This document shows, in pieces, positions 9,671 through 30,262 of a stretch of 57,992 nt of DNA. The notes under the pieces are model-generated. The model had not been told where the DNA came from. It saw only the letters and a program-made list of their open reading frames with translations, and did not search any database. Numbering within the stretch: position 1 is the first letter of the stretch; every line of letters starts with the position of its first letter. A program made the position numbers and the translations under genes. The DNA is from Planobispora longispora (GTDB lineage Bacteria; Actinomycetota; Actinomycetes; Streptosporangiales; Streptosporangiaceae), in contig NZ_BOOH01000055.1 of the NCBI RefSeq assembly GCF_016863135.1, positions 1 through 57,992 on the forward strand, in the 5' to 3' direction.

Positions 9671-9699
9671 TAAGATATCATCAGGAATATGATTCCTGA
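9671..9699 (+). promoter_or_regulatory. RpiR promoter with a palindrome across the start codon
   Basis: TAAGAT (-10 like) is at 9671-9676. The dyad TCAGGAAT-ATG-ATTCCTGA at 9681-9699 has perfect 8-bp arms, and the start codon is the spacer. A further GGAATTCC sits at 9657-9664. The layout suggests a short or absent leader and autorepression. Confidence 0.55.
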
Positions 9700-10582
9700 A
9701 GATTCGGGTGGATCACCGGACGCCGCGCACCCGGCCGGCGGGGTGGCCGCGGTGATCGCGGCGGCCGCCCCCTCGCTGCGGCCGAGCGACGCGCGCGTCA
9801 TGCGCCTGGTGCTCGAAGAGCCGGACTTCGTGCGGGGCGCCACGGTCGCAGCCGTGGCCGAGCGCGCCGAAGTGAGTCCGTCCACGGTGGTCCGGGCGTG
9901 CCATGCCGCGGGCTTCGGCGGCTTTCCGGAACTGAAGCTGGCGCTGGTGCGCGAGGCGGCCCGGTCGGCCGACAACGTGCCGCGCACGCTCAGCGCCGGC
10001 ACCGGACTCGACGAGGTGTACGCGACGGTGCTCGCCAGCCACGGCGACAGCGTCCGCTCGGTCCGAGCCACCCTCGATCTCGCCCATCTGGAGCGGGCCG
10101 TCCAGATGCTGACGGCCGCCGCGCACATCCTGGTCGTCGGCGTGGGGACGTCCGCGGCCCCCGCCGCCGACGCCGCCTATCGGCTCACCACGATCGGCTG
10201 CCGCGCCGAGGCCCCGGCCGACGGCCGGACCCGGCAGCTGAGGGCGAGCCTGCTGGACGAGGATGATGTGATCTTGGCGGTCAGTCACACCGGACGCAGC
10301 GCCGAGACGCTGGCCGCCGTCGAGGCCGCCCGCCTCCGGGAGGCGAAGATCGTGGCGATCACCAGCTTCTCGTCATCGCCGCTGGCCGACCACGCCCATG
10401 CGGTGCTGGTGGCCGGAGGTCCGGACCTGGGCTTCCAGATGGCCGCCTCCAGCAGCAGGCTGGCCCACCTGGCCGTCGTCGACATCCTGCACGCCGCCAT
10501 CGGCCTGTCCGCCCCGGCCCGTTCGCACGCCGCGATGCGGGCGACCGCCGACATCACCGACGCCAACAGTCTCCCCGGCTGA
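9689..10582 (+). CDS. RpiR/MurR-family transcriptional regulator (HTH + SIS)
   Basis: The 297-aa protein has an N-terminal RpiR helix-turn-helix (residues about 10-90; AERAEVSPSTVVRACHAAGF) and a C-terminal SIS sugar-phosphate-binding domain (about 125-270; ILVVGVGTSAAPAADAAYRL, AVSHTGRSAETL). RpiR proteins sense phosphosugars. No sugar gene adjoins it, so the ligand is unknown. The start lies within a perfect dyad and probably near the transcription start. The next gene is 218 bp downstream with its own operator. Confidence 0.92.
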   Translation: MIPEDSGGSPDAAHPAGGVAAVIAAAAPSLRPSDARVMRLVLEEPDFVRGATVAAVAERAEVSPSTVVRACHAAGFGGFPELKLALVREAARSADNVPRTLSAGTGLDEVYATVLASHGDSVRSVRATLDLAHLERAVQMLTAAAHILVVGVGTSAAPAADAAYRLTTIGCRAEAPADGRTRQLRASLLDEDDVILAVSHTGRSAETLAAVEAARLREAKIVAITSFSSSPLADHAHAVLVAGGPDLGFQMAASSSRLAHLAVVDILHAAIGLSAPARSHAAMRATADITDANSLPG

Positions 10583-10621
10583 TCCCGTCCCCGATGGCGC
10601 CTCGATCTCTTGTTGACTCTC

Positions 10622-10661
10622 TTGTTCACCGTACAATACGATCTTCTTGGCCACTGTACAG
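10622..10661 (+). promoter_or_regulatory. TetR-type operator, site A
   Basis: TTGTTCACCGTACAA at 10622-10636 is identical to one box of the TetR promoter at 12120-12134. A weaker second copy (TTGGCCACTGTACAG, 12 of 15 positions matching the 12094 box) starts 25 bp later. The site lies about 140-180 bp before the secreted-protein gene at 10801. Confidence 0.7.
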
Positions 10662-10800
10662 GAAAGTTTGCCGGGGGATGCGGGGACCAGCGGATGCCGA
10701 ATCCGGGACAGGTGTCGAACCGCGCCCCCTGCAGGGCGCGTGAAGGACGCGCGCCGAGGACGACGGCCGCCGGGGCCGTCGGCAACCGAAGGAGAGCAGG

Positions 10801-11379
10801 ATGTCCGTACCGAACCGGGCCGGCAAGGCCGCACTGGCAGCACCTGCCGGGCGGCGAACGGCGTCGGCCGCCGTCCTGGTGACGGCACTCGCGCTGGGGG
10901 CCGTGGCGGCTCCGGCCGGCGCGGCGGTGCTACCGCAGCCGGCCGCGGCGCCGGCCGCCTCCGCGACCGCGGCCGGAAAATTCGGGCCGTTCGGATTCGG
11001 AGGTGTGCGACTGGGGATGAGCGCCAAGAAGGCCAAGGCCACCAGGAAGATCGTCTCCAAGCCCGTTTCCGGCCCGTGCACGGCATGGGACCTGAAGGCC
11101 TACCCGAGCGGCGCCGACAGCGTGGGCCTGTACATCTCCAAGAAGCACGGCGTGGCCGTGATCGTCGCGCCCAAAGGTGCGAAGACCCCGCGGGGAATCA
11201 AGGTCGGCTCCACCGGCGGGCAACTGAAGAAGGCCTACCCCGGCATACGGCGGGCGGCCAACGGATACGCCGTCATCACCGTTCCGGGCAACGCGAAGGC
11301 CGATTACCTCTTCCAGCTGTCGCGTGGCAGGGTCAGCGAGATGATCCTGGCCCTGAAGAGCCAGGACTGCGTCAACTGA
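10801..11379 (+). CDS. Secreted protein of unknown function
   Basis: The 192-aa protein has a long signal peptide (basic start, hydrophobic ASAAVLVTALALGAVAAPAGA, likely cleaved after AxA near residue 40). A mature domain follows, opening FGGVRLGMSAKKAKAT and ending in SQDCVN. Two Cys (PVSGPCTAW and the C-terminal CVN) could form a disulphide. The GxxLGMs-x-x-x-A opening resembles small actinobacterial secreted domains with no known function. GGAGAGCAGG precedes the ATG. A copy of the TetR-type operator upstream suggests control by the TetR protein at 11391-12092. Confidence 0.8.
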   Translation: MSVPNRAGKAALAAPAGRRTASAAVLVTALALGAVAAPAGAAVLPQPAAAPAASATAAGKFGPFGFGGVRLGMSAKKAKATRKIVSKPVSGPCTAWDLKAYPSGADSVGLYISKKHGVAVIVAPKGAKTPRGIKVGSTGGQLKKAYPGIRRAANGYAVITVPGNAKADYLFQLSRGRVSEMILALKSQDCVN

Positions 11380-11390
11380 TGGCGTTCTGA

Positions 11391-12092
11391 TCACTTGGGC
11401 GGCTCGGCGGGGATGCCCCGTCGAGCCGCTCGTGCGCTCAGGCCGTCCAGGATCGCCTCGATCCCGGCGGCGAAGCTCGCCTCCAGATCCAGGTCTCGGA
11501 TCTGTCCGGCCAGCCGGTGGGTGGCGGGGAACTCGGCGGCGGGCAGGGCCGACAACTGGTCGAACTCACTGTCGTCCGGTGGCCCGATGGTGGCGTTGAC
11601 CTCGGCGAGCGTGAAGCCGGTGGCGTAGGAGAAGATCAGGGTGCCGGCCTGCACGGTGCGCACCGGATCGAGACCGGCCTCCTCCAGGGCGCGGTACAGC
11701 TCCTCGTAGATCCTGTACTCCTGCACGGTGCTCTCCGGATAGGAGGCCAGGTAGGGAAACAGCCGCGGATGGGCGTGCGCGACCTGCCGCAGGGCCAGGC
11801 ACAGCGCCCGTATCCGGTCCCGCCAGGCGCCGGTGCGGGCCCGGGTGAGGTCCATCTCCTCCAGGACGGTCTCCACCACGCCGCGCAGCACCGCGTTGCG
11901 GGTGGGCAGATAGTAGTACAGCGCGGTGGGGAACACGCCGAGGTCGGCGGCCAGGCGCCGGATGCTCAGTGCCTCCACTCCGGCTTCGTCGATCATTTCC
12001 AGGGCCCGCCGCAGGATCAGCTCCCGCGACAGCGGCTCTCGCTCCGGTCCGGCCGCTCGGCGGGCACGCTCTCCGGCAATCTCCTCGACCAT
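11391..12092 (-). CDS. TetR-family regulator (TetR_C-type ligand domain)
   Basis: The 233-aa protein has an N-terminal HTH (ALSIRRLAADLGVFPTALYY, residues about 42-61) and a C-terminal TetR_C-like helical domain (HPRLFPYLASYP, FSYATGFTLAEV). The ATG at 12092 is preferred over an upstream TTG, because the two operator boxes fill 12094-12134 and would otherwise be translated. The boxes sit directly against the start codon, which implies autorepression. The same two-box site occurs at two other promoters in the window, so this protein probably heads a small local regulon. A decayed paralogue lies at 18316-19013. Confidence 0.92.
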   Translation of the reverse strand: MVEEIAGERARRAAGPEREPLSRELILRRALEMIDEAGVEALSIRRLAADLGVFPTALYYYLPTRNAVLRGVVETVLEEMDLTRARTGAWRDRIRALCLALRQVAHAHPRLFPYLASYPESTVQEYRIYEELYRALEEAGLDPVRTVQAGTLIFSYATGFTLAEVNATIGPPDDSEFDQLSALPAAEFPATHRLAGQIRDLDLEASFAAGIEAILDGLSARAARRGIPAEPPK

Positions 12093-12093
12093 G

Positions 12094-12134
12094 TTGTCCA
12101 CCGTACAATAAATTTGCTGTTGTTCACCGTACAA
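12094..12134. promoter_or_regulatory. TetR-type two-box operator, site B
   Basis: TTGTCCACCGTACAA (12094-12108) and TTGTTCACCGTACAA (12120-12134) are spaced 26 bp start to start. Each box has arms TTGTNC / GTACAA around ACC. The site lies between the divergent TetR gene and the amine-oxidase remnant, 2 bp from the TetR ATG. Confidence 0.8.
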
Positions 12135-12164
12135 TGTGGTTTACCGGGGATGATGTGAAACAGG

Positions 12165-13015
12165 ATGCGCGTGACCGGGAAACAGCTGCTGGCAGGGATA
12201 GCCGGGCTGTCTGTTGCCGCCGCCGGGACCGCCCTGGGTTACCGGGCCGGTGCCTCGTCAGTCCGGCCTCCGGCCGGGAGTAGGCGGCAGGTCGGCCGCG
12301 ACGGCGGCCCTGCGCCGGGCGGCGTCGCAGGCGAGCTCACCCGCGTCATCGTGATCGGGGCGGGATCGGCCGGTCTGACCGCGGCCAATGCTCTGGCCTC
12401 GGCCGGAGTGGAAGTACTGGTCCTGGAGGCCACAGATCGCCTGGGCGGGCGGATCCGCACCGCTGAGATCGGCGGGACCGACATCGACCTGGGCGCCGCG
12501 TGGATCCACACCCCCACGGCAACCCGCTGACCCATTTGTGCGAGCGGGCGGGCATCCCGCAACTGCCCTACGCCCTGGAGGGCCTGACCGCCGGGGTCGC
12601 GCTGGTCGGTGAAGGAGGCGTGCGAGTGCGCAGCTCGCTCCAGTCGAGCTTGATCCGCAGCGCGGCCGGCGTCGAAGACGCCGCAGCCAAATTCACCGCC
12701 CGCACCCCGCCCTCCGGCGCTCCCGCCGCCTCAGCAGGCGCCGCAGGGAGCGGGCGGGAGGAGACGCTCGGCAGCCTCATCGACGCCTACTGCGCCACCG
12801 AAACCGACGCCGGCCGCCGCGAGTGGATGCGCTTCATCCTGCACACGGTCGTCGAGACCGAACTCGCCGCTCCGGCCGGCGGTCTGTCGACTGCGGTGCT
12901 GGAGGTTCCCGAGCCCTACGGCGGAGGCGACGACGTCCCCGGCGGCGGATGCCGCCGCCTGATCACGGCACTCACCCCTGATGCGCCCATCCGGACGGGC
13001 GCAACCAGCCGCAGC
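12165..13015 (+). pseudogene. FAD-dependent amine oxidase remnant
   Basis: The frame begins with a signal or anchor peptide, then the dinucleotide-binding motif VIVIGAGSAGLTAANALASA, LEATDRLGGRIRT and GAAWIHTP. The protein continues one frame over as HGNPLTHLCERAGIPQLPY. The shift is in the C run near 12512-12516. Further on come EVPEPYGGGDDVPGGGCRRLITAL and DAPIRTG, typical of the middle of the family, after which the homology ends. Amine oxidases are usually 450-500 aa; here only about 250 residues are recoverable and the C-terminal FAD-contact half is missing. It is divergent from TetR and behind the same operator. Confidence 0.75.
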
Positions 13016-13026
13016 CGGCGGGCAGC

Positions 13027-13155
13027 GTACCGGCCGCGCTGCGGGAAAGGATCGCCTGCGTGCTCGAGGTGGCCAAAGCCCATGGTCACTGCCGGCTGGT
13101 GCTCGGTGCGTGAGGGTGCGGGGTGTTCGGCAACGATCCCGGCCTGGCCGCCGGC
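13027..13155 (+). pseudogene. Fragment of a TIGR02452/PARG-like protein
   Basis: The segment reads VPAALRERIACVLEVAKAHG, then CRLVLGA-stop-GCGVFGNDP. The family motif is LVLGAWGCGVFxNDP, so the conserved Trp codon has become TGA. Only this C-terminal stretch of the microbial poly(ADP-ribose)-glycohydrolase-like fold is present. Confidence 0.6.
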
Positions 13156-13275
13156 AGGGGTTCACCGCCCTGCCGCGGCGCCGAGCGGCCGAGCATGGTG
13201 GGCTGGCTGATGCTTTGCTGCGTGGCGCGCACGCGCCAGGCCGTGCCGAGGCGCCCCGAAGCCATGATCCACTCA
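13150..13275 (+). pseudogene. Degenerate segment shared with 19250-19380, possibly a FAD-monooxygenase end
   Basis: This stretch is about 80% identical by eye to 19250-19380. One frame reads GFTALPRRRAAEHGGLADALLRG, which resembles the TALRDAxxLADALLRG region of class A FAD monooxygenases. That identification is weak; the duplication itself is clear. Confidence 0.45.
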
Positions 13276-13447
13276 CGCGGCGGTCCGGTTGGACCTCGAT
13301 GTGGAACTCCAGACCCCGATCGGCACGCTGTATGGTGACCGCTGGACGCCCTCCCACCGGACACGATCGCCTGTCCGGCGGCCGGAGGGGCCATCACCAC
13401 CGGATGGCCCTTCACGCTCCACGAACGCAACCCCGCCGCCAACGTCG

Positions 13448-13555
13448 ATGGGACACATCGTGAACCTGCTCGATGACGAGGCGCTTGAGCGCTCCTCGGT
13501 GGTGGCCAGCTGCCGGATGAACCGGGAGCGCCGCGCTCGCCCGTCCCGCCCGGCT
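13448..13555 (+). pseudogene. N-terminal fragment of a SAM-dependent methyltransferase
   Basis: The segment NLLDDEALERSSVVASCRMN, continuing RERR, matches the opening seen in a class I methyltransferase group (LDEEAL..S.VVANCAMNRERxLTG). The SAM-binding glycine motif never appears, because sequence after 13555 is unrelated. Confidence 0.5.
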
Positions 13556-13878
13556 ACCGCACCTCCGACTTCGACTGGAGAGGGTGCGACGGCATCGGCT
13601 CGTGGTACCTCTCGTGCGCCTGACAACGGGACGGAGGGGCCGCGCGCCGGCGTGCGGCCCCTTCACCGTGGGGCTCTTGACCGGCGTTCGCGGGAAGCGG
13701 GCACGGTCTCGTCCGCACGGATGAAGGCTCGCTGGCAGACCCAGCCGGCGATCCGGTTTGACCGCTGACGGGATGATCGTCGAAAGCGGGCCTGGCCTTT
13801 CCCCGGATCAGACATCTCACCTGGCGCGGGTCGTGAACGGTTCAGCCGATTAGGCCGGCAGCTTGCAGACTGAGGGAC

Positions 13879-14218
13879 ATGGACATGATGGATGAGATCG
13901 GTGAAGTCATGGCCGATCGGCAGGTCGAGGCCGTGACTTCACCGATGGGGCGCACCTTGCGGTGACGGCCAGGTTCGGGCGGCCGCGTCTCGACGAGCTG
14001 AGCGAGCACGGCGACTGGTGCTGTCCCTACCAGATCCTGGGCCTGGGCGAGGAGGATGTCAGGGGGCATCCGGCGTGGACTCGCTGCAGGCGCTCCTGCT
14101 GAGCGTGTATAAGGCGCAGTCGGAGCTGGAAGCGCGAGCACGGTCCGCGTCGGTCCGGCTGGACTGGCTGGGCCTGCCGGATCTCGGTTTCACTGTGGAG
14201 CCGGACCAGATGGTCTGA
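13879..14218 (+). pseudogene. DUF6968-like small protein, frameshifted twice
   Basis: Three consecutive frames together give MADRQVEAVTSPMGRTL, then VTARFGRPRL...GDWCCPYQILGLGEEDVRG, then GVDSLQALLLSVYKAQSELE and LDWLGLPDLGF. This order fits the small DUF6968 family (about 100 aa; CPYQILGLG and WLGxxDLGF). Two single-base deletions, near 13960 and in the G run at 14059-14064, would explain the breaks. Role unknown. Confidence 0.65.
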
Positions 14219-14225
14219 GCGGGTC

Positions 14226-14520
14226 TGGGCCCCGGGAGACGCTGGAGGAGGCCGGCGTCCGGTGCGAGATCACCGGCATCGTCGGCACCGACACCAACCC
14301 CAAGCACGTCATCCTCTACACCTCCAACGGCGAGGCCCCCCAGGAGTTCTCCATCGTGCTCACGGGCCGCGCCGTCGAAGGCGAGCCGACGCCGAGCGAC
14401 GAGTCCCGCGAAGTGCGCTGGGTGCCGCGCCAGGAGGTCGAGGCACTGACGATGGAACGGTCGATGCGCCTGCGGATCGGCCACTACCTGGCCGGCCGGG
14501 CGGCGCCGTACATCGGGTGA
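14226..14520 (+). pseudogene. NUDIX hydrolase, 5'-truncated
   Basis: The frame ends at 14520 and carries the second half of the NUDIX box (RETLEEAGV, from the REUXEEXGU part), then CEITGIVGTDTNPKHVILY and SREVRWVPRQEVEAL. The first half of the box (Gx5E) and everything upstream are missing: sequence before 14226 belongs to the DUF6968 remnant. Without that half it cannot be an active NUDIX enzyme. Confidence 0.75.
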
Positions 14521-14595
14521 ACCGCTGCCTGAGTGCGGCTGCGACTCGTTCGGTCCCGTGAGAGGACTGCTGTCGCCGGCACAGCGGTCCGCGCG

Positions 14596-15018
14596 TCAGT
14601 CTCCGTCATCGGCGTAGTAGTTCGCACAGACCGCTGAATACTCCGCAGTGGAGAACCCGTCGAAGTCCCCGGCGGCCTCACACATGAGCAACCGGTCCAA
14701 GGCTGCCTTCGCCTCCTCCGAAGGATGGCCGGCGAGGAACGTCTTCGTTTCCGCCAGCCCCGCTCCGCACAGAAGCTGGATGTCGATGGAGCAATCGGCG
14801 TCCATGCTCGCCGTCTTGGCCTGCCAGACGAGCAAGACGTCATCGAGCGCCCCGACGTTGAACAACTGGACGCAGCAGAGCCTCATCAGCTCGGTATCAC
14901 CCGCCCCCTGCTCCTGGCGTTCCCCGGCGGCCTGGGCGGTCAGCAGTTCACGTATCTCGTCGAGGGCGCGCCCGTCTGGGTGCAGGCCGTACCGGTGGAG
15001 GAGCTCCTCCTCGTCCAT
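14596..15018 (-). CDS. Conserved hypothetical protein, 140 aa
   Basis: The ATG at 15018 follows AAAGGAG with ideal spacing; the longer upstream frame lacks a site. The protein is acidic and helical (MDEEELLHRYGLHPDGRALD, MRLCCVQLFNVG, LDDVLLVWQAKTASMDAD, LLCGAGLAETKTFL). It resembles a family of small actinobacterial proteins of unknown role found near accessory or immunity-type genes. No membrane segment or catalytic motif is seen. Confidence 0.75.
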   Translation of the reverse strand: MDEEELLHRYGLHPDGRALDEIRELLTAQAAGERQEQGAGDTELMRLCCVQLFNVGALDDVLLVWQAKTASMDADCSIDIQLLCGAGLAETKTFLAGHPSEEAKAALDRLLMCEAAGDFDGFSTAEYSAVCANYYADDGD

Positions 15019-15656
15019 GCGTTTCTCCTTTGCGGCCCGGCCGGGCGGCGCCGTACATCGACGGAGTCCTTCTTGATCGCGCTGCCGTACGGTAGCGCTC
15101 ATGAGCACCCTTCACGTTCCCGGCGGCACACGGTAGCCCTGGCTCGACCTTCTGCGGCGCGTAGGCCCGATCGTCATCGAGTGTGCATCCTGGTTCGCGG
15201 TCAACGGCGCCCACCTGATTGCTCTGGTCCGCGCCGGAGCCACCTTCATCGACGGCAGACCCGTCGAACGCCCCTCAGAATCACCCGTCCCTACAGCCGC
15301 CTAGGAACTCATGATCTACAGATCTTGACTATTGCTCTCGGGATAGTAGTCGTCCTGGTGCATGGCCTTGAGAAAGGGATGATCGATGATCAGCTGGTTG
15401 CTGATGGGCACTTTCGTTTCCTGCTCTCGCCTCACCCGATGTGCCGATCCTGCACGCCAGTACCGACAAGGGCGTGTGGTTGGGCCGATCCGGGGACATC
15501 AAAGCCTCCATCGCTACGACCCGGATATGACGTCGTGGCGAAGGGTGCGGGCCAGCCCGCACCTGGTCGATCGAGTACGGGCCGTCAGCACGCACCCCAC
15601 CTGATCACCGGCGCCGTCGGTATCGCGCTGGCGCGGCGTGTGAGCCCTGCCCCCGC
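15019..15656. other. Non-coding or decayed stretch
   Basis: The only protein-like piece is on the plus strand at 15137-15304 (WLDLLRRVGPIVIECASW onward, ending PVPTAA), which has no start codon with a ribosome site and no recognised family. The rest, including 15305-15656, holds nothing I can name. Confidence 0.4.
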
Positions 15657-18107
15657 TCAGGAGTCGATGCGTACCGGTTCCAGGCCGATGCTGATCTGCC
15701 GATCACCTGCTATGGCGGCTGTGTGTCCGCTCAACGTCGTCACCGTGTGCGCGTTCCAGCCGGGCGGCAGTTCGACCCGCTCCGGCGGGCCGGTGGTCCA
15801 CAGCACCGAGTAGCGCTGCCTGCCGCGCGCGAGGCGGAAGACGTAGATGTCTTCAGCGACCCTGTAGGAGGCGGTGATGCGCGCCCCGGACAGCCACTCG
15901 GCCGCCGCCTGGTAGCCCTCCCCTTCCAGGCTCGGCTTGCCGTCCTTCATCAGCCGGGCGTCGTAGGCCTCCTCCAGCATGTAGAAGTTGAAGTTCTCGA
16001 TGCCGCGCCCGGCCATGACGAACAGGGCGCGGGCGACGGCCGAGCGGCGCTCGGCGTCGGTGATCGGCCGGCAGCCGCCCGGCGTCTTGCACAGCTCGAC
16101 GGTGCAGGGTCCCTGCTTGAGGCACACGGCGTTGGTGCCGTTCAGGCACGGGCCGCCGCCCACGCAGCTTTGCATGCCGCCTTCGGTGTTCCACAACTTC
16201 AGGTGGCCGATGCCGTGGCGGTCCATGAGGGTGCGGATGTTGTCGATGACGCCGGCGTTTTCCGGATCCGTGGCGAAATACCAGTGGAAGGCCACCCCGT
16301 CGATGTGGTCTTTGCCGCCGGCGGCCAGGAACCGGTGGAGCGAGTCGATGCCGTTGACGGTGATGCTGGGGCTGAGCAGGATGTTGCCGGCGTAGGCCGC
16401 TTTGAGTTCCTGCCGGGCGATCTCCGCCAGCCGGGCCAGGCGTTTGGCGTCGCCGGTGTAGAACAGGCCGTAGTCGAATTCGTTCCACAGCTCCCAGACG
16501 GTGATCTTGCCGGCGTACCGCTGCGCGAGGGTGCGCACGTAGTCACGCCAGTCGTCGTCACTTTCCGGCGGGGACTGCGGGCCCGTTGCCCCTGGCGGCC
16601 GGGCCCAGGCGGGCGTCTGTCCCAGAACGTATATGATCTTGAGTTTGGGATCGAGGTGCTCCCGGATGTCGATGAGTTTCTTGACGTAGGTCACCTCCAG
16701 CCGTTTGCCGACCTTGCCGTTGCTCCAGTCCCATCCGTCCTGGGTGGGCTCGAGCCGGAACCACTGCGTCCCGCTGTCCCACAGGCGCACCACGTGCTGG
16801 CCCAGGGGCGGCCACCGCCAGGAGGCGGCGTCGATTTTCTGGGTGTGGAGGCCGAACAGGTTGTCGGAGACGGCGCCGTCGCCCGCCGGCGCCCACGGGT
16901 TGCCGTGGATCTCGGAGATCACCATGTCGTCGAGGTAGATGTTGCGCTCGGCGCTCAGCGCGGTCAGCCGGATGCTCACCGGGATTCCGGGAGCCTGCGC
17001 GCAGGCCACCTGGAACTGCACTTTCTGCCACCGGCCGGTCAGGGTCACGCTCTGCTCGGCCAGGTAGGTGAAGGCGTTGCGGATGTCGCGGCGGACTCCC
17101 AGCCGCGCGCCGGCCCGCTGCCCGGCGTCGGTGCGCATCTGCGCGGAGATGCGGTAGGTGCGCCCGCGCGGGCAGCCAAAGCGCCGCGGGTCGTAATACA
17201 GCGCGGCCCGCGAACCAGGCTTGATCAGCAAGCGCTGCGCGGCGGCGCCCTCGCCGTCCGGGTCGTGGTAGCCCGGCGCGGTGGCGGCTCCCGCGTCGAC
17301 ATCGGCCAGATCGGATGCGGCGTCGTTGAGGTTCCAGCCCGGCGCCAGGCGCCGGCCGGTGTGGTAGGGGCCTTCGAAGTCGACGGCGGTGTCGGTGGTT
17401 CCGATGCGGGGGTCCATGCTCGGCGGGATGTGCAAGGGTGAGCGCGCATCGGCGTCGGTAACCGACGACAGGGTGAAGCGGTCGATGAAGACATCGACGT
17501 CATCCTCCAGCGGCGCCACCCGGAATGAGCCGGGATCGGCCCAGCTGTAGGTGCCCTGGAGCGTCACCTGCGCCCAGTTCGTGCTCACCTCTGCCGTCGT
17601 GGCGGCGGCCACGTCGAAGGCCCGCTCGCCGTCGCGGCGCAGCAGCAGCTGGACCCGGGTGGCGCGGGAGGCGCGGATGGCCAGGCTCACCCGGTAGGCC
17701 GTGCCCCGCTCAAAGGGCCAGGCGCGATACAGGTGGGCGCCGGCGCCGGTCGAGCGCGAGACGATCCGAAATCGTTGGGCTCCGCCGGAGGCTCCGGGAC
17801 CGGAAGACGCCTCGTAGCCGGGGAGGCGGCCGTCCGGGCCGGGCCAGCGGTTGACGCGAAAGCCCGGAGCCGTCGTGGTGAAGGGCTCATCGAAGTCCTC
17901 TGCGATGAGCAGCTGCGGGGAGGAGACGGCAGGCGATCGCAGTGCCGCCGCGCCGGTGGGCGCCGCCAGGGCCGCCAGCAGGGCGGTCAGGGCCAGCGCG
18001 GCGATGAGCGCCGTTCGCCGTGCGGCAGACCTCACCGGCGCACCTCCGGGCGATGGGATCGGGGCAGGGGCATCGCTTTTCTCTTTTCTGTGGTCGGTGG
18101 CCGTCAT
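15657..18107 (-). CDS. Secreted multidomain glycoside hydrolase (clan GH-A type)
   Basis: The 816-aa protein has a signal peptide (ALIAALALTALLAALAAPTG, residues about 33-58). Two beta-rich CBM-like modules follow (about 65-230 and 240-420). The catalytic TIM barrel (about 425-740) carries VWELWNEFDYG near 544, probable acid/base Glu, and LKLWNTEGGM near 639, probable nucleophile Glu. This pairing is typical of GH39/GH5-like enzymes. A Cys-rich loop with six cysteines (655-690) follows the nucleophile strand, and a beta C-terminal domain ends it. The target is probably a plant or microbial polysaccharide. The start is uncertain: ATG 18107 lacks a clear ribosome site. The TetR-type two-box operator lies 165-210 bp upstream, so the enzyme is likely under that repressor. 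Confidence 0.88.
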   Translation of the reverse strand: MTATDHRKEKSDAPAPIPSPGGAPVRSAARRTALIAALALTALLAALAAPTGAAALRSPAVSSPQLLIAEDFDEPFTTTAPGFRVNRWPGPDGRLPGYEASSGPGASGGAQRFRIVSRSTGAGAHLYRAWPFERGTAYRVSLAIRASRATRVQLLLRRDGERAFDVAAATTAEVSTNWAQVTLQGTYSWADPGSFRVAPLEDDVDVFIDRFTLSSVTDADARSPLHIPPSMDPRIGTTDTAVDFEGPYHTGRRLAPGWNLNDAASDLADVDAGAATAPGYHDPDGEGAAAQRLLIKPGSRAALYYDPRRFGCPRGRTYRISAQMRTDAGQRAGARLGVRRDIRNAFTYLAEQSVTLTGRWQKVQFQVACAQAPGIPVSIRLTALSAERNIYLDDMVISEIHGNPWAPAGDGAVSDNLFGLHTQKIDAASWRWPPLGQHVVRLWDSGTQWFRLEPTQDGWDWSNGKVGKRLEVTYVKKLIDIREHLDPKLKIIYVLGQTPAWARPPGATGPQSPPESDDDWRDYVRTLAQRYAGKITVWELWNEFDYGLFYTGDAKRLARLAEIARQELKAAYAGNILLSPSITVNGIDSLHRFLAAGGKDHIDGVAFHWYFATDPENAGVIDNIRTLMDRHGIGHLKLWNTEGGMQSCVGGGPCLNGTNAVCLKQGPCTVELCKTPGGCRPITDAERRSAVARALFVMAGRGIENFNFYMLEEAYDARLMKDGKPSLEGEGYQAAAEWLSGARITASYRVAEDIYVFRLARGRQRYSVLWTTGPPERVELPPGWNAHTVTTLSGHTAAIAGDRQISIGLEPVRIDS

Positions 18108-18273
18108 CTTCGGCGGGCGCCCCAGATGGGCGGGGTGCGGGGCGTGGCCGGGCGCGATGTCCGGGCGGGCGCCGCCGATCGCGGCTGCGGGTAGTCGCGA
18201 CGGGTGCGCGTGCCGCCTGGTGCGCGGGTGTTCCTCGCCGTGCCGACAATCCGGCCGCCCGCGGTGGATGTCG

Positions 18274-18314
18274 TTGTACGGTGGACAACGACAACCGTAT
18301 TGTACGGTGAACAA
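18274..18314. promoter_or_regulatory. TetR-type two-box operator, site C
   Basis: TTGTACGGTGGACAA (18274-18288) and TTGTACGGTGAACAA (18300-18314) are spaced 26 bp, the exact reverse-complement arrangement of site B. The site separates the glycoside hydrolase gene from the decayed TetR copy, whose ATG begins 2 bp after the second box. Confidence 0.8.
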
Positions 18315-18315
18315 C

Positions 18316-19013
18316 ATGGTCAAGAAAGCGGCATCCGGCGCTTTCCGGGTCCACCGCGCAAGCCCTCATCCCGGACCGGACATCGGAGATAATCGACGAG
18401 GAAACAAAGGCGCCGGGCATCCGACGGCTCGCCGACGATCCCATCCCGCTCTCTTGCCGCCGGCACTGTCCTCCTACCTGCTGATCAAGGAAGCCGTACC
18501 GCGCGATGCCGTAGAGATTGTCCTGGAGAAGATGAACCTCGCTCGAGCCTTCACCGGCGATTGGAGGCAGCAGGCGGACCTACGGCGTCATGTCCTGCGA
18601 CAGGGCGGTCCTTTTGCGCCCCGTTTCTTCCTCCATCTGGCCTCCTACCTGCAAAGCATCCGGCAGGAATACCGGCTCTACGAAGGGCGGTACTGTGCGC
18701 TGCCGCAGGCCGGCCTGGCTGGTTGGAAGGACGAGAAGTGGCTTCGCCTGCCAAAATCTTCTGGTCCCGGCGCGGATCGTGCACACAGGTAGCCTGCTCT
18801 TCTCCACCACCGGCTTCGTCCCGGCCGAGGTCAGTTTCATTATCGATCTCGCCGCGCCCCGGCGAGATCGATCGGGTGTCAGCGCTGCCGGCCGATGAGT
18901 TGCCTGCCATTCACCGGCCGGCAGAGGAGGTCTGCGGGCTCGCGCTCAATGCGAGCTTCGCGGCTGGGACCGAGGCGACCCTCGACCGGCTGACCGCCGC
19001 ACAGCCGAGGTGA
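18316..19013 (+). pseudogene. Decayed paralogue of the 11391-12092 TetR gene
   Basis: Pieces in three frames align in order with the intact TetR: IIDEETKAPGIRRLA against MIDEAGVEALSIRRLA; VEIVLEKMNLARAFTGDW against VETVLEEMDLTRARTGAW; FFLHLASYLQSIRQEYRLYE against FPYLASYPESTVQEYRIYE; VHTGSLLFSTTGFVPAEV against VQAGTLIFSYATGFTLAEV; and ALPADELPAIHRPA with ALNASFAAGTEATLD. The DNA-recognition helix is lost and at least three frameshifts separate the pieces. Even the operator and its distance to the ATG are preserved, so this is a duplication of the whole promoter-gene unit. Confidence 0.88.
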
Positions 19014-22263: not shown

Positions 22264-23064
22264 TCACGGGCTCCGGTCACCGCCCCCGGTGAGCGGCCGG
22301 TCATACATTCGTGATCGACGGTGAACGTCCGGACCTGCAGATCACGGTCAGACCGTCTCGGGTGCGGATCACGCTCGGCAGAGCATTCAGGCCGCCGCCA
22401 ACGCCCGCACGCGCACGGCCTCATCGTGCTCAGGCGGGCTTATGGCGTGGATTGTCGCCGTACTGGAGGAAGGGATACCGGTAGTAGAGGTCCGGGGGAG
22501 CGGCGAGGCCCGCAGCCTCAAGCCCACTCCTCCTGCAGCCAGTGGTGGTACAAGGTAGCGAATCAAGGTCGCGACAGCGCGTTCGCCAATGGCGCGGATG
22601 CGGGCGTGGGCCCGGTTGACGTCTCGCCGCCCGCGAGACAGCCATCAACACGCCCATCATGATCAGGTGTGTTGCGACGAACACTAGAACCCGCGCGGAA
22701 TCACAGGGTCAGTCTTCAGTCGGAACCGACATGGGGCGCAGCAGGAACGTGAAGGACGTACGTACACCCACCTCCTGTAGCCCGAACCGGGTCAGCCGAC
22801 GCTCTCAACGGGTACCGGCATTTTTTTCGAAGAGAGGCAGCGCAGATTCCCCCACCCGCTGAAGCAGGTAGTCCCCCTCCGCGCGATGTTGATGGATGCC
22901 CGATCCCAACCGCCGCTGGGCGGCGCAGAATCAACGATGGGCCCTCGTTCGTCCGTTGCCGTCGAAGAGACCGTGCCGGATTCGATGACTGAACGCAACC
23001 TGGACGATCATCTGGCTGTCTGGGGCATCATGATCGTGCCGCACTTGCATCGCCGGTGCCGTCC
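22264..23064. other. Gene-poor stretch with a transposase scrap
   Basis: Apart from an IS5-type fragment (22561-22623) I find no supportable gene. A T7 run occurs at 22821-22827. Frames on both strands lack recognisable motifs. Confidence 0.4.
22561..22623 (-). mobile_element. IS5-family transposase fragment
   Basis: The minus strand reads DVNRAHARIRAIGERAVATL, the familiar C-terminal segment of IS5/IS1647-type DDE transposases. The following KSWRLLRKLRC-like part is absent, so only about 21 residues remain. Confidence 0.55.
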
Positions 23065-25639: not shown

Positions 25640-25885
25640 CTACGGCACCGCCGGCACCGTCACGACCTCGATCCATCCGTCGTCGATGCCCGTCACGTAA
25701 CCGGGAACCTGTCCCGCCTCGCCCATCCCGATCGCCGGTTCCGCCTCGGCGGCGACGGCCCGCAGGAACAGCGTCGTCTGTTCGGAGGCGACGGCGCGCC
25801 ACCGGCCGTAGGTGCGGAAGTTGTCCACCGTCGAGTCCTCGATGAACCCGACCAGTTGCTTGCGGTAGTGCACGGGGACGTCCAC
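25640..25885 (-). CDS. Small hypothetical protein, 81 aa
   Basis: The protein begins MDVPVHYRKQLVGFIEDSTV and ends in DDGWIEVVTVPAVP. AGGAGCCTGTGGACG precedes the ATG region, with AGGAG at suitable distance. I recognise no family. It lies upstream of the SUFU gene in the same direction, so the two may be co-transcribed. Confidence 0.6.
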   Translation of the reverse strand: MDVPVHYRKQLVGFIEDSTVDNFRTYGRWRAVASEQTTLFLRAVAAEAEPAIGMGEAGQVPGYVTGIDDGWIEVVTVPAVP

Positions 25886-28694: not shown

Positions 28695-29444
28695 TCAGAC
28701 AGGGGGTCGTTCCGCCGTTCCGGCCTCCGGACGGGAGGCGCCCAGGTCTGCTTCCAGTCCGGCGGCGGTCACGAGGTCGGCGGCCAGCGCCTCGCGGTCG
28801 GCCGCAGACAGCTCCAGCGCGCCGGCCTCGGCGAGCGCCGCCGCCGCGGCGTCGCGCGCGCCGGTACGCCATCGCAGTTCGGCGAGATAGACCAGCGCGG
28901 ACAGGCGCTGGGCGGGCGGCGCATCGGTGTGCCGGGCGAGCCCGGTCTCCAGGATGCGGATTCCGGCCGCCTCGTCGCCGCGGGAGTCGGCCTGGCGCGC
29001 GGCGGCGGCCACCACCCGCGCCAGCCTGCCCTCCGCGGCCGCGGGCTCGTCGCCCGCGTCGCCGTATCTGCTGATCCGCAGCCAGTTGCCGCCGGGATCG
29101 ACGACCGTGAAACCGCCGGCGGTGCCCTGCTTGCGCCGCGGCCGGGTCATCCGCGGGATCCCGGACGCCGGAACCTTGCCGAAGGCGGCACGCAGTCCCG
29201 CGGTGAAGGCGGTGTGCAGCGCCTCCGTGTCCGGGACGAGCACGACCACGCTTCCCATGGAGTCGGCGGGGTCGAACGTGGGGACGGCGAAGAAGTGCAG
29301 CTCTATCCCGCCGCGACGGACGGCGGCGTACGGGTTGGGGCGTTCCTGGCGGTAGGTCACGTCGAATCCGAGCGCGGTGTAGAAAGGCAGGACGTTGTCG
29401 AGGTCGCGGCATGGCAGGCCGGGGATGGTGGATTCGGTGCGCAT
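28695..29444 (-). CDS. VOC (glyoxalase/bleomycin-resistance) protein with helical C-terminal domain
   Basis: The 249-aa protein has an N-terminal VOC domain (residues 1-125; STIPGLPCRDLDNVLPFYTA, ELHFFAV, GGFTVVDPGGNWLRISR). The extra 120-residue Ala-rich helical region that follows resembles tetratricopeptide helices (LVYLAELRWRTGARDAAAAA). Stand-alone VOC resistance proteins are about 125 aa, so the extension is unusual. It starts 11 bases from the palindrome TACACCG-TT-CGGTGTA and is divergent from a TetR gene, its likely repressor. Confidence 0.9.
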   Translation of the reverse strand: MRTESTIPGLPCRDLDNVLPFYTALGFDVTYRQERPNPYAAVRRGGIELHFFAVPTFDPADSMGSVVVLVPDTEALHTAFTAGLRAAFGKVPASGIPRMTRPRRKQGTAGGFTVVDPGGNWLRISRYGDAGDEPAAAEGRLARVVAAAARQADSRGDEAAGIRILETGLARHTDAPPAQRLSALVYLAELRWRTGARDAAAAALAEAGALELSAADREALAADLVTAAGLEADLGASRPEAGTAERPPV

Positions 29445-29454
29445 AAAAACACCG

Positions 29455-29470
29455 TACACCGTTCGGTGTA
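29455..29470. promoter_or_regulatory. TetR operator between the VOC and TetR genes
   Basis: TACACCG-TT-CGGTGTA has perfect 7-bp arms. It lies within the 47-bp gap and would block both divergent promoters. Confidence 0.75.
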
Positions 29471-29491
29471 TTCGTGGCAGAAGGGTGGGAG

Positions 29492-30262
29492 ATGGAGTAC
29501 CCGGGACGCGGTGACGCCGCGCGCACGATGGCGCTGCTCTGGGACGGGGCGCCCACCCCCCGGCGCGGCCCGCGGCAGCGGCTCGACCTCGCGCGGATCG
29601 TCGACGCCGCGATCGCCGAGGCCGACCGCTCCGGGCCGGCCGCCCTGTCGATGCGGGCGCTGGCGCACACGCTCGGCATCGGCCCGGCGTCGCTGTACAC
29701 CTACGTACCGGGCAAGGCGGAGCTGCTGGAGTTGATGGTCGACCGCGTCGCGGGCGGCCGGCCCCTCCCCTCCGCGGACGCCGGGTGGCGGGCCGGGCTG
29801 CGCGACCTGGCCGCATCCGACCTCGCCGCCTTCCGCGCCCATCCCTGGCTGCTGCAGGTGGCGACCTCGCGCACCGTCTTCGGCCCGAGCGTCCTGGCCC
29901 GCCATGACGCCGCGCTGGCCCTGCTCGACGGGTACGGCCTGGCGGCAATCGACATCGTGGGATGCGTGGCGGCGGTCGAGGCGTACACGCGGGGCGCGGC
30001 CTCGGCAGTCGTCGAGGCCGAGCAGGCGCCCGCGCTCACCGGCAGCAGCGACGACGAGTGGTGGGAGGAGCGCGCCCCGCTCCTGGGGGAGCGCATGGCC
30101 GGCCGCTTCCCGCGGCTGGCCGCACTGGAGGAGGCCGGGGCGTTCGCCGTGTCGGATTCCGCTCTCCCCTATACGCTGCAGCGGGCGTTGGACCGCTTCG
30201 CCTTCGGGCTCGACCTCGTCCTCGACTCCGTCGGCGCCCGGATCGCCGCGGCCCGGGACTGA
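29492..30262 (+). CDS. TetR-family regulator
   Basis: The 256-aa protein has an HTH (LSMRALAHTLGIGPASLYTY, residues about 52-71) and a TetR_C-like helical ligand domain (HPWLLQVATSRTVFGPSVLA; LDRFAFGLDLVLDSV). ATG 29492 is chosen over GTG 29474, because AAGGG lies at good distance and the GTG is only 3 bp from the operator. It probably represses itself and the VOC gene. Confidence 0.9.
   Translation: MEYPGRGDAARTMALLWDGAPTPRRGPRQRLDLARIVDAAIAEADRSGPAALSMRALAHTLGIGPASLYTYVPGKAELLELMVDRVAGGRPLPSADAGWRAGLRDLAASDLAAFRAHPWLLQVATSRTVFGPSVLARHDAALALLDGYGLAAIDIVGCVAAVEAYTRGAASAVVEAEQAPALTGSSDDEWWEERAPLLGERMAGRFPRLAALEEAGAFAVSDSALPYTLQRALDRFAFGLDLVLDSVGARIAAARD

Follow-up and report, generated by a model that had tools for sequence, protein, structure and literature searches.

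Among the streptomycete TetR-family regulators of one study, those with a divergent neighbour within 200 base pairs (bp) repressed that neighbour in five of five tested cases, and ActR and SCO7222 were each assigned three putative sites, with CCACCGTT contained in those of ActR (PMC3511530). The same source describes two 15-bp palindromic operators between the divergent genes tetR and tetA, through which both genes are repressed (PMC3511530), and a report on SimR places two operators between divergent genes (PMC5812520). Here we describe a locus of the soil actinomycete Planobispora longispora (Streptosporangiaceae) within a stretch of 57,992 nucleotides (NCBI RefSeq assembly GCF_016863135.1, contig NZ_BOOH01000055.1, positions 1 to 57,992, forward strand), hereafter the window. 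A TetR-family gene, tetR1, is accompanied there by repeated operator boxes at three predicted promoters, those of a divergent flavin amine oxidase remnant, a secreted protein and a secreted GH39-like glycoside hydrolase. We consider it likely that the boxes serve a local, autoregulated repression by TetR1, which would act by promoter occlusion and be released by a ligand.

Operator boxes and promoter architecture

The box, TTGTNCACCGTACAA, is a contiguous 15-bp imperfect palindrome present in five exact copies in the window (Table 1). A preliminary description, made from the letters alone, had written it as TTGTNC-ACC-GTACAA, a form that is in fact contiguous, and had placed pairs at 12094/12120 and 18274/18300 with a spacing of 26 bp and a perfect plus a weak copy, 25 bp apart, at 10622/10647. 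All of these copies and their start-to-start distances (26, 26 and 25 bp) were confirmed, as were the neighbouring genes it had named: a TetR gene, an amine oxidase remnant, the hydrolase, the secreted protein and a decayed TetR gene. It had noticed no other copies, and the genome-wide motif scan it proposed as a check (120 contigs, 8,843,645 bases) likewise found no further exact copies outside the window, confining exact boxes to this locus. Approximately 0.008 exact copies are expected genome-wide by chance at 70.5% GC, while five are observed, confirming that the boxes are real. When up to three mismatches were allowed, the window contained seven matches compared to 0.82 expected, a number reached in 0 of 100 shuffles; the seventh, at 25821 with three mismatches, has counterparts, also unpaired, in L012, L049 and L053. 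Genome-wide near-matches comprise one site with one mismatch and five with two, the latter being near background because a reversed-pattern control in the same genome gave two matches at up to two mismatches. Of the six near-miss loci (L006-L011), all but L008 fall within an open frame longer than 150 codons in one strand or both, and L011 is located just upstream of another TetR gene.

Alignment of 14 promoters from eight genomes revealed a shared layout, TTGAC[C/T]-N3-box1-TANNNT-N4/5-box2. The alignment covers the window, L048-L050 (one genome), L051, L052, L053, L054, L055 and L015; its search pattern fixed part of the -35 and the TA of the -10, and box2 was taken as the best match within a range. 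As a check on this pattern, all 13 exact box1 copies listed at these promoters fall inside the table, and all 13 are preceded by T[T/C]GAC[C/T] exactly 3 nucleotides upstream and followed directly by TANNNT. At the oxidase promoters the -35 is TCGACC in the window and L051, TTGACC in five relatives and TTGATC in L015, whose boxes have diverged like its -35. In the predicted promoters, box1 would therefore fill the 18-bp spacer between -35 and -10, with box2 covering the expected start point. A consensus promoter scan of 9 kb made a single call (0.3 expected), TTGACT-18-TACGAT at 10613-10642, around box1 of the secreted-protein promoter, and we infer that the aligned hexamers are working promoters. 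On the opposite strand, the boxes cover a putative tetR1 -10, which reads TATTGT in seven of the eight aligned divergons and TAATGT in L015. The tetR1 start codon lies 1 nucleotide beyond the box, the oxidase -35 is encoded on the opposite strand by tetR1 codons 1-3, and the hydrolase -35 by the start of the relic tetR2.

TetR1 is well supported as the predicted regulator of the boxes. It carries an N-terminal helix-turn-helix (PF00440, 27.3 bits compared to a cut-off of 24) and a C-terminal ligand/dimer domain (PF02909 TetR_C_1, E 7e-18), and falls below the equivalog cut-offs for both tetracycline TetR (NF010319, 64.7 bits versus 265) and the mycofactocin regulator MftR2 (NF038211, 61.9 bits versus 285). 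The helix-turn-helix is near-identical across the seven TetR1 sequences compared, which do not include L015. Ratios of nonsynonymous to synonymous substitution (dN/dS; here always pairwise Nei-Gojobori values from few differences) of 0.14, 0.26 and 0.30 in three comparisons indicate purifying selection on tetR1. In P. rosea (G112) parts of the gene lie on two contigs, with a gap of about 230 bp, and any reading of it as intact there is provisional.

As judged from sequence only, the palindromic operators overlap the predicted promoters of tetR1 and of its targets. A TetR1 dimer would bind each 15-bp imperfect palindrome, occupying at every target promoter one site between -35 and -10 and a second over the transcription start, and because the sites lie in the spacer and over the start, bound TetR1 would keep RNA polymerase off the promoter. 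From the opposite strand, the same boxes would cover the putative -10 and start region of tetR1, leading to autorepression. A ligand, at a guess an amine or a sugar linked to the targets, would release TetR1 and so turn on the divergent oxidase (dead here), the secreted protein and the hydrolase. Since the oxidase and tetR2 are pseudogenes, the intact outputs in the window would be tetR1, the secreted protein and the hydrolase. A broader proposal, plausible and leaning slightly to the doubtful side, is that this is a Streptosporangiaceae-specific regulon, its signal perhaps amine- or exopolysaccharide-linked, that coordinates an exported oxidase, a secreted protein and a hydrolase, with the tetR1 start constrained to encode the opposing -35 and one repressor having assumed control of a promoter that once belonged to its dead paralogue.

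Table 1. Features of the tetR1 locus, in coordinates of the window
Feature	Position	Strand	Basis
Exact TTGTNCACCGTACAA copies	10622, 12094, 12120, 18274, 18300	+, +, +, -, -	Pattern search
Weak box copy, 3 mismatches	10647	+	Pattern search
tetR1, 233-amino-acid TetR-family repressor (TetR_N + TetR_C_1)	11391..12092	-	Pfam, orthologues, dN/dS
Proposed -35 of oxidase promoter (TCGACC), within tetR1 codons 1-3	12085..12090	+	Alignment
Operator box1 of tetR1/amine-oxidase divergon, in oxidase promoter spacer	12094..12108	+	Pattern, alignment
Proposed -10 of oxidase promoter (TAAATT)	12109..12114	+	Alignment
Operator box2 of divergon, over expected oxidase start point	12120..12134	+	Pattern, alignment
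Flavin amine oxidase pseudogene	12165..13021	+	Comparison with P. rosea enzyme
Predicted -35 of secreted-protein promoter (TTGACT)	10613..10618	+	Alignment; part of sole promoter called in 9 kb
Operator box1 of secreted-protein promoter	10622..10636	+	Pattern, alignment
Predicted -10 of secreted-protein promoter (TACGAT)	10637..10642	+	Alignment, promoter scan
Weak operator box2 of secreted-protein promoter, 3 mismatches	10647..10661	+	Pattern, alignment
192-amino-acid protein with apparent signal peptide	10801..11379	+	Open reading frame, profile searches
Secreted GH39-like glycoside hydrolase, 792 amino acids, CBM_4_9 + catalytic core	15657..18035	-	Profiles
Operator box2 of hydrolase promoter	18274..18288	-	Pattern, alignment
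Proposed -10 of hydrolase promoter (TACGGT), weak consensus match	18294..18299	-	Alignment
Operator box1 of hydrolase promoter	18300..18314	-	Pattern, alignment
Proposed -35 of hydrolase promoter (TTGACC), overlapping relic tetR2 start	18318..18323	-	Alignment
tetR2 pseudogene	18316..18998	+	Four homologous pieces, three frames

Distribution in relatives and target genes

Using a cut-off of E 1e-40, with at most eight first-pass candidates scored per genome, TetR1 orthologues were found in 8 of 341 genomes of the family, the window's included. The composite promoter-box pattern TTGACNNNNTTGTNCACCGTACANTA gave, at up to one mismatch, 13 sites in seven of the 341 genomes, each of which also has a TetR1 orthologue. 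In the eighth holder (G062, locus L015) a single two-mismatch site adjoins tetR, and among the 333 family genomes that lack a TetR1 orthologue none has a site at up to two mismatches. A set of 394 genomes drawn from the class included four with matches at up to one mismatch, each belonging to this family and one of them being the window's, and a single genome outside the family (G520) gave a two-mismatch match. A further 19 family sites with three mismatches were dropped as background, as the reversed control gave a similar number (about 20). A tetR with a divergent flavin amine oxidase forms the conserved core in all eight holders (as a remnant here), with the oxidase promoter boxed in every case, while TTGACNNNNTTGTNCACCGTACANTA placed a boxed secreted-protein promoter in four genomes (G000, G112, G015 and G058) and a boxed hydrolase promoter in two (G000 and G112). 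The view of a small, local TetR regulon thus stands: the boxes are found only at this locus genome-wide, and their promoter-embedded form, among the family genomes, only in TetR1 holders. The related claim that one regulator links hydrolase, secreted protein and oxidase holds in part. The secreted-protein and hydrolase promoters are boxed, control of the hydrolase being probable at most, and the oxidase link fails here, where the gene is dead, and holds in relatives.

Similar boxes also occur beside other TetR_C_1 genes. One such gene in G087 has the boxes TTATACACCGTACAA and TTGTGCATCGTACAA, 32 bp start to start (L056:7446-7492); contig G058:C10 carries a pair resembling it and G095:C2 a single box of this type, L056 being the only one of these loci that was read. 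Within the window, an inverted repeat TACACCG-TT-CGGTGTA at 29440-29475, upstream of a TetR_C_1 gene at about 29567-30247 (+), is a possible operator with different spacing. The window had no Rfam match at gathering scores and no tRNA.

The oxidase lies 72 bp from tetR1. Its remnant aligns in two frames with the P. rosea enzyme, at residues 1-117 and 116-286, indicating a frameshift, and no counterpart of the last approximately 220 of 507 residues was found in the window. This genome therefore cannot produce the oxidase, and the link between regulator and oxidase holds in relatives, not here. Intact oxidases of 489-527 amino acids, with lengths read from start codons, stand behind the same promoter in five relatives (L048, L051, L052, L053 and L055). 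The L015 oxidase is a long open frame whose reading began at an arbitrary point upstream; in L054, where only the start region was read, both matched pieces are present. The P. rosea enzyme (L048) has a full Amino_oxidase domain (residues 68-496, E 1e-66), and the solved structures closest to the Planomonospora oxidase are spermine/polyamine oxidases and LSD1-type enzymes. By eye, the N-termini resemble export signals; L053 and L055 have a twin-arginine-like pair, and the pair is GK in both Planobispora species. The dN/dS ratios of the window pieces were 0.37 and 0.56, against 0.36 when the complete enzymes of two relatives were compared. Downstream of the remnant, stretches that lie apart in P. 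rosea are matched by fragments within 13002-13789. One fragment corresponds to the end of an open reading frame (L048:5948-6634) that neighbours the oxidase there, encodes a secreted-looking repeat protein and adjoins a transposase-like frame (L048:4336-5694).

The secreted protein gave no Pfam or NCBIfam match, and its predicted structure is poor (mean predicted local distance difference test score, pLDDT, 52.6). Counterparts of its weak box2 in the three relatives compared have 2, 3 and 4 mismatches. Directly upstream of its promoter and codirectional with it is an open gene for an RpiR-type SIS-domain regulator (9689-10582), for which P. rosea L050 has only a short matching piece.

The hydrolase promoter and alternative explanations

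The hydrolase probably starts at a GTG codon with GGAGG ahead of it. The window protein matches only Glyco_hydro_cc, below the cut-off, and a 32%-identical relative (L059) matches Glyco_hydro_39. A single-sequence search of the PDB with the hydrolase gave nothing at E 0.001; a profile of five relatives recovered GH39 xylosidases, PslG and, more weakly, GH10 xylanases. Residues W517, N518, E519 and E618, which we take to be catalytic, are invariant across these five relatives. Near-full-length copies were found only in the window genome and G112 among 149 relatives searched, the G112 copy having one stop in the matched stretch, and a dN/dS of 0.21 indicates purifying selection. In P. rosea JCM 3166 two contigs end at an apparent insertion in the hydrolase gene (L048:1-61 and L049:6611-6669), about five bases seem repeated, and window positions 22691-22733 match part of that contig-end sequence.

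Upstream of the hydrolase, the pieces of tetR2 are 48-55% identical to a TetR1 orthologue, with a break within the helix-turn-helix, and the gene is almost wholly deleted in P. rosea (L049). No intact TetR2 was found in the compared loci (six, and nine plus L015; no wider TetR2 search was made), where the matches were TetR1 orthologues. Before it decayed, TetR2 was probably the hydrolase's own regulator. Between the window and P. rosea, the -35 and both hydrolase boxes are identical at 36 of 36 positions, compared to 263 of 319 (82%) elsewhere in the alignment and 20 of 32 on the side facing tetR2; a simple independence estimate for this identity is 0.001. Such identity despite the loss of tetR2 suggests that the operator is still used, most simply by TetR1, which we infer would have come to control the hydrolase in trans after TetR2 was lost.

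Other explanations of the boxes were considered alongside TetR1 repression. That they are chance or common background is already refuted by the genome-wide and shuffle counts given above, and its probability is vanishingly small. The preliminary description had read a fixed operator spacing as a sign of cooperative binding by two dimers. A second site, strong or weak, does follow box1 at all 14 tabulated promoters, the weak ones partly reflecting the choice of the best match, and the weak box2 is retained in all four secreted-gene promoters. However, the step from box1 to box2 is not fixed, being 26 bp at eight promoters and 25 bp at six; the box, the -10 and a discriminator of 4-5 nucleotides together equal that distance. 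With a helical repeat of 10.5 bp per turn, 25-26 bp corresponds to approximately 2.4-2.5 turns, which would place the dimers on roughly opposite faces of the DNA, so that contact between them is not favoured. The claim was thus not borne out: the -35/-10/+1 layout accounts for the spacing, and the data argue against a need for QacR-type cooperative two-dimer binding, leaving it improbable that the pairs exist for that purpose. Equally improbable is a division of labour in which the two boxes of a pair act on different, divergent promoters, as tetO1 and tetO2 do. This would suit the main pair, which lies between divergent genes, and the hydrolase pair, which formerly did, but the secreted-protein promoter also has a pair although the RpiR-like gene upstream is codirectional, and both boxes keep their place relative to a single -35/-10.

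The hydrolase boxes might instead be relics of dead TetR2, leaving the hydrolase constitutive or otherwise regulated. The tetR2 start abuts these boxes exactly as the tetR1 start abuts its own, and tetR2 survives only as a pseudogene in several frames, with little of it remaining in P. rosea, where the hydrolase also seems interrupted. Set against this are the invariance of the promoter elements between the two species and the fact that the hydrolase boxes have exactly the two sequence forms seen at the tetR1 divergon, and we regard the relic explanation as unlikely.

Several observations nevertheless weigh against repression by TetR1 at all three promoters. The oxidase and hydrolase promoters were not called in the consensus scan of 9 kb because their weaker hexamers (TCGACC/TAAATT and TTGACC/TACGGT) fall below its threshold, so both rest on alignment. 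The hydrolase start lies about 250 nucleotides downstream of the expected start point, implying a long leader, and the longest identical run in the hydrolase-promoter alignment (36 bases) lies elsewhere, at the ribosome-binding region. The P. rosea hydrolase seems cut by an insertion near the signal peptide, and the comparison involves two close species only. The secreted protein evolves fast (dN/dS 0.48 and 0.68). Most sites adjoin tetR1 and share its ancestry, so their co-occurrence, although strong evidence, does not amount to eight independent events. Finally, a TetR_C_1 regulator 32% identical to TetR1 is encoded elsewhere in the same genome (L011:747-1545, contig C57), and close upstream of it lies a similar pair of boxes, CTGTACAGCGTACAA and CTGGACACCGTACAG, separated by 17 bp. 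A different TetR might therefore bind the boxes described here, and a single cell may contain related repressors with a common type of operator.

Comparison with known systems

Taken together, repression by TetR1 describes a clean TetR regulon backed by comparative genomics, with the box at only three promoters in an 8.84-Mb genome. The locus also offers a natural case in which a repressor site appears to have outlived its adjacent repressor gene, and it illustrates that fixed operator spacing need not mean cooperative binding, since such spacing can be dictated by the promoter. The written forms of the box were unmatched in the open-licence papers searched, and no paper on this regulon was recognised from titles and abstract openings.

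ActR is the best-scoring solved-structure relative of TetR1 by sequence (2opt, E 1.8e-18). ActR/ActA, SCO7222/SCO7223 and others likewise pair a TetR-type repressor gene with a divergently transcribed gene for an enzyme or pump less than 200 bp away, with several palindromes, and the ActR site element CCACCGTT is close to CCACCGTA here (PMC3511530). The present locus differs from them in its predicted targets, which comprise a flavin oxidase together with two further secreted products, each with its own promoter. The SimR/simX report also describes a TetR-family repressor with two operators in a divergent region, and TetR1 and SimR share an N-terminal stretch before the helix-turn-helix, that of SimR being known from a cited title (PMC5812520). 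TetR1 matches SimR structures by sequence (2y2z, E 3e-12), but the SimR target is an efflux pump and its ligand is known. TetR/tetA resembles this locus in its two 15-bp palindromic operators between divergent genes and in a similar C-terminal domain, tetracycline TetR itself belonging to PF02909, and differs from it in operator sequence and target, TetR1 scoring below the tetracycline-TetR cut-off. It is therefore well supported that this system fits the known divergent-TetR kind, ordinary in its predicted mechanism and with an operator sequence and target set of its own.

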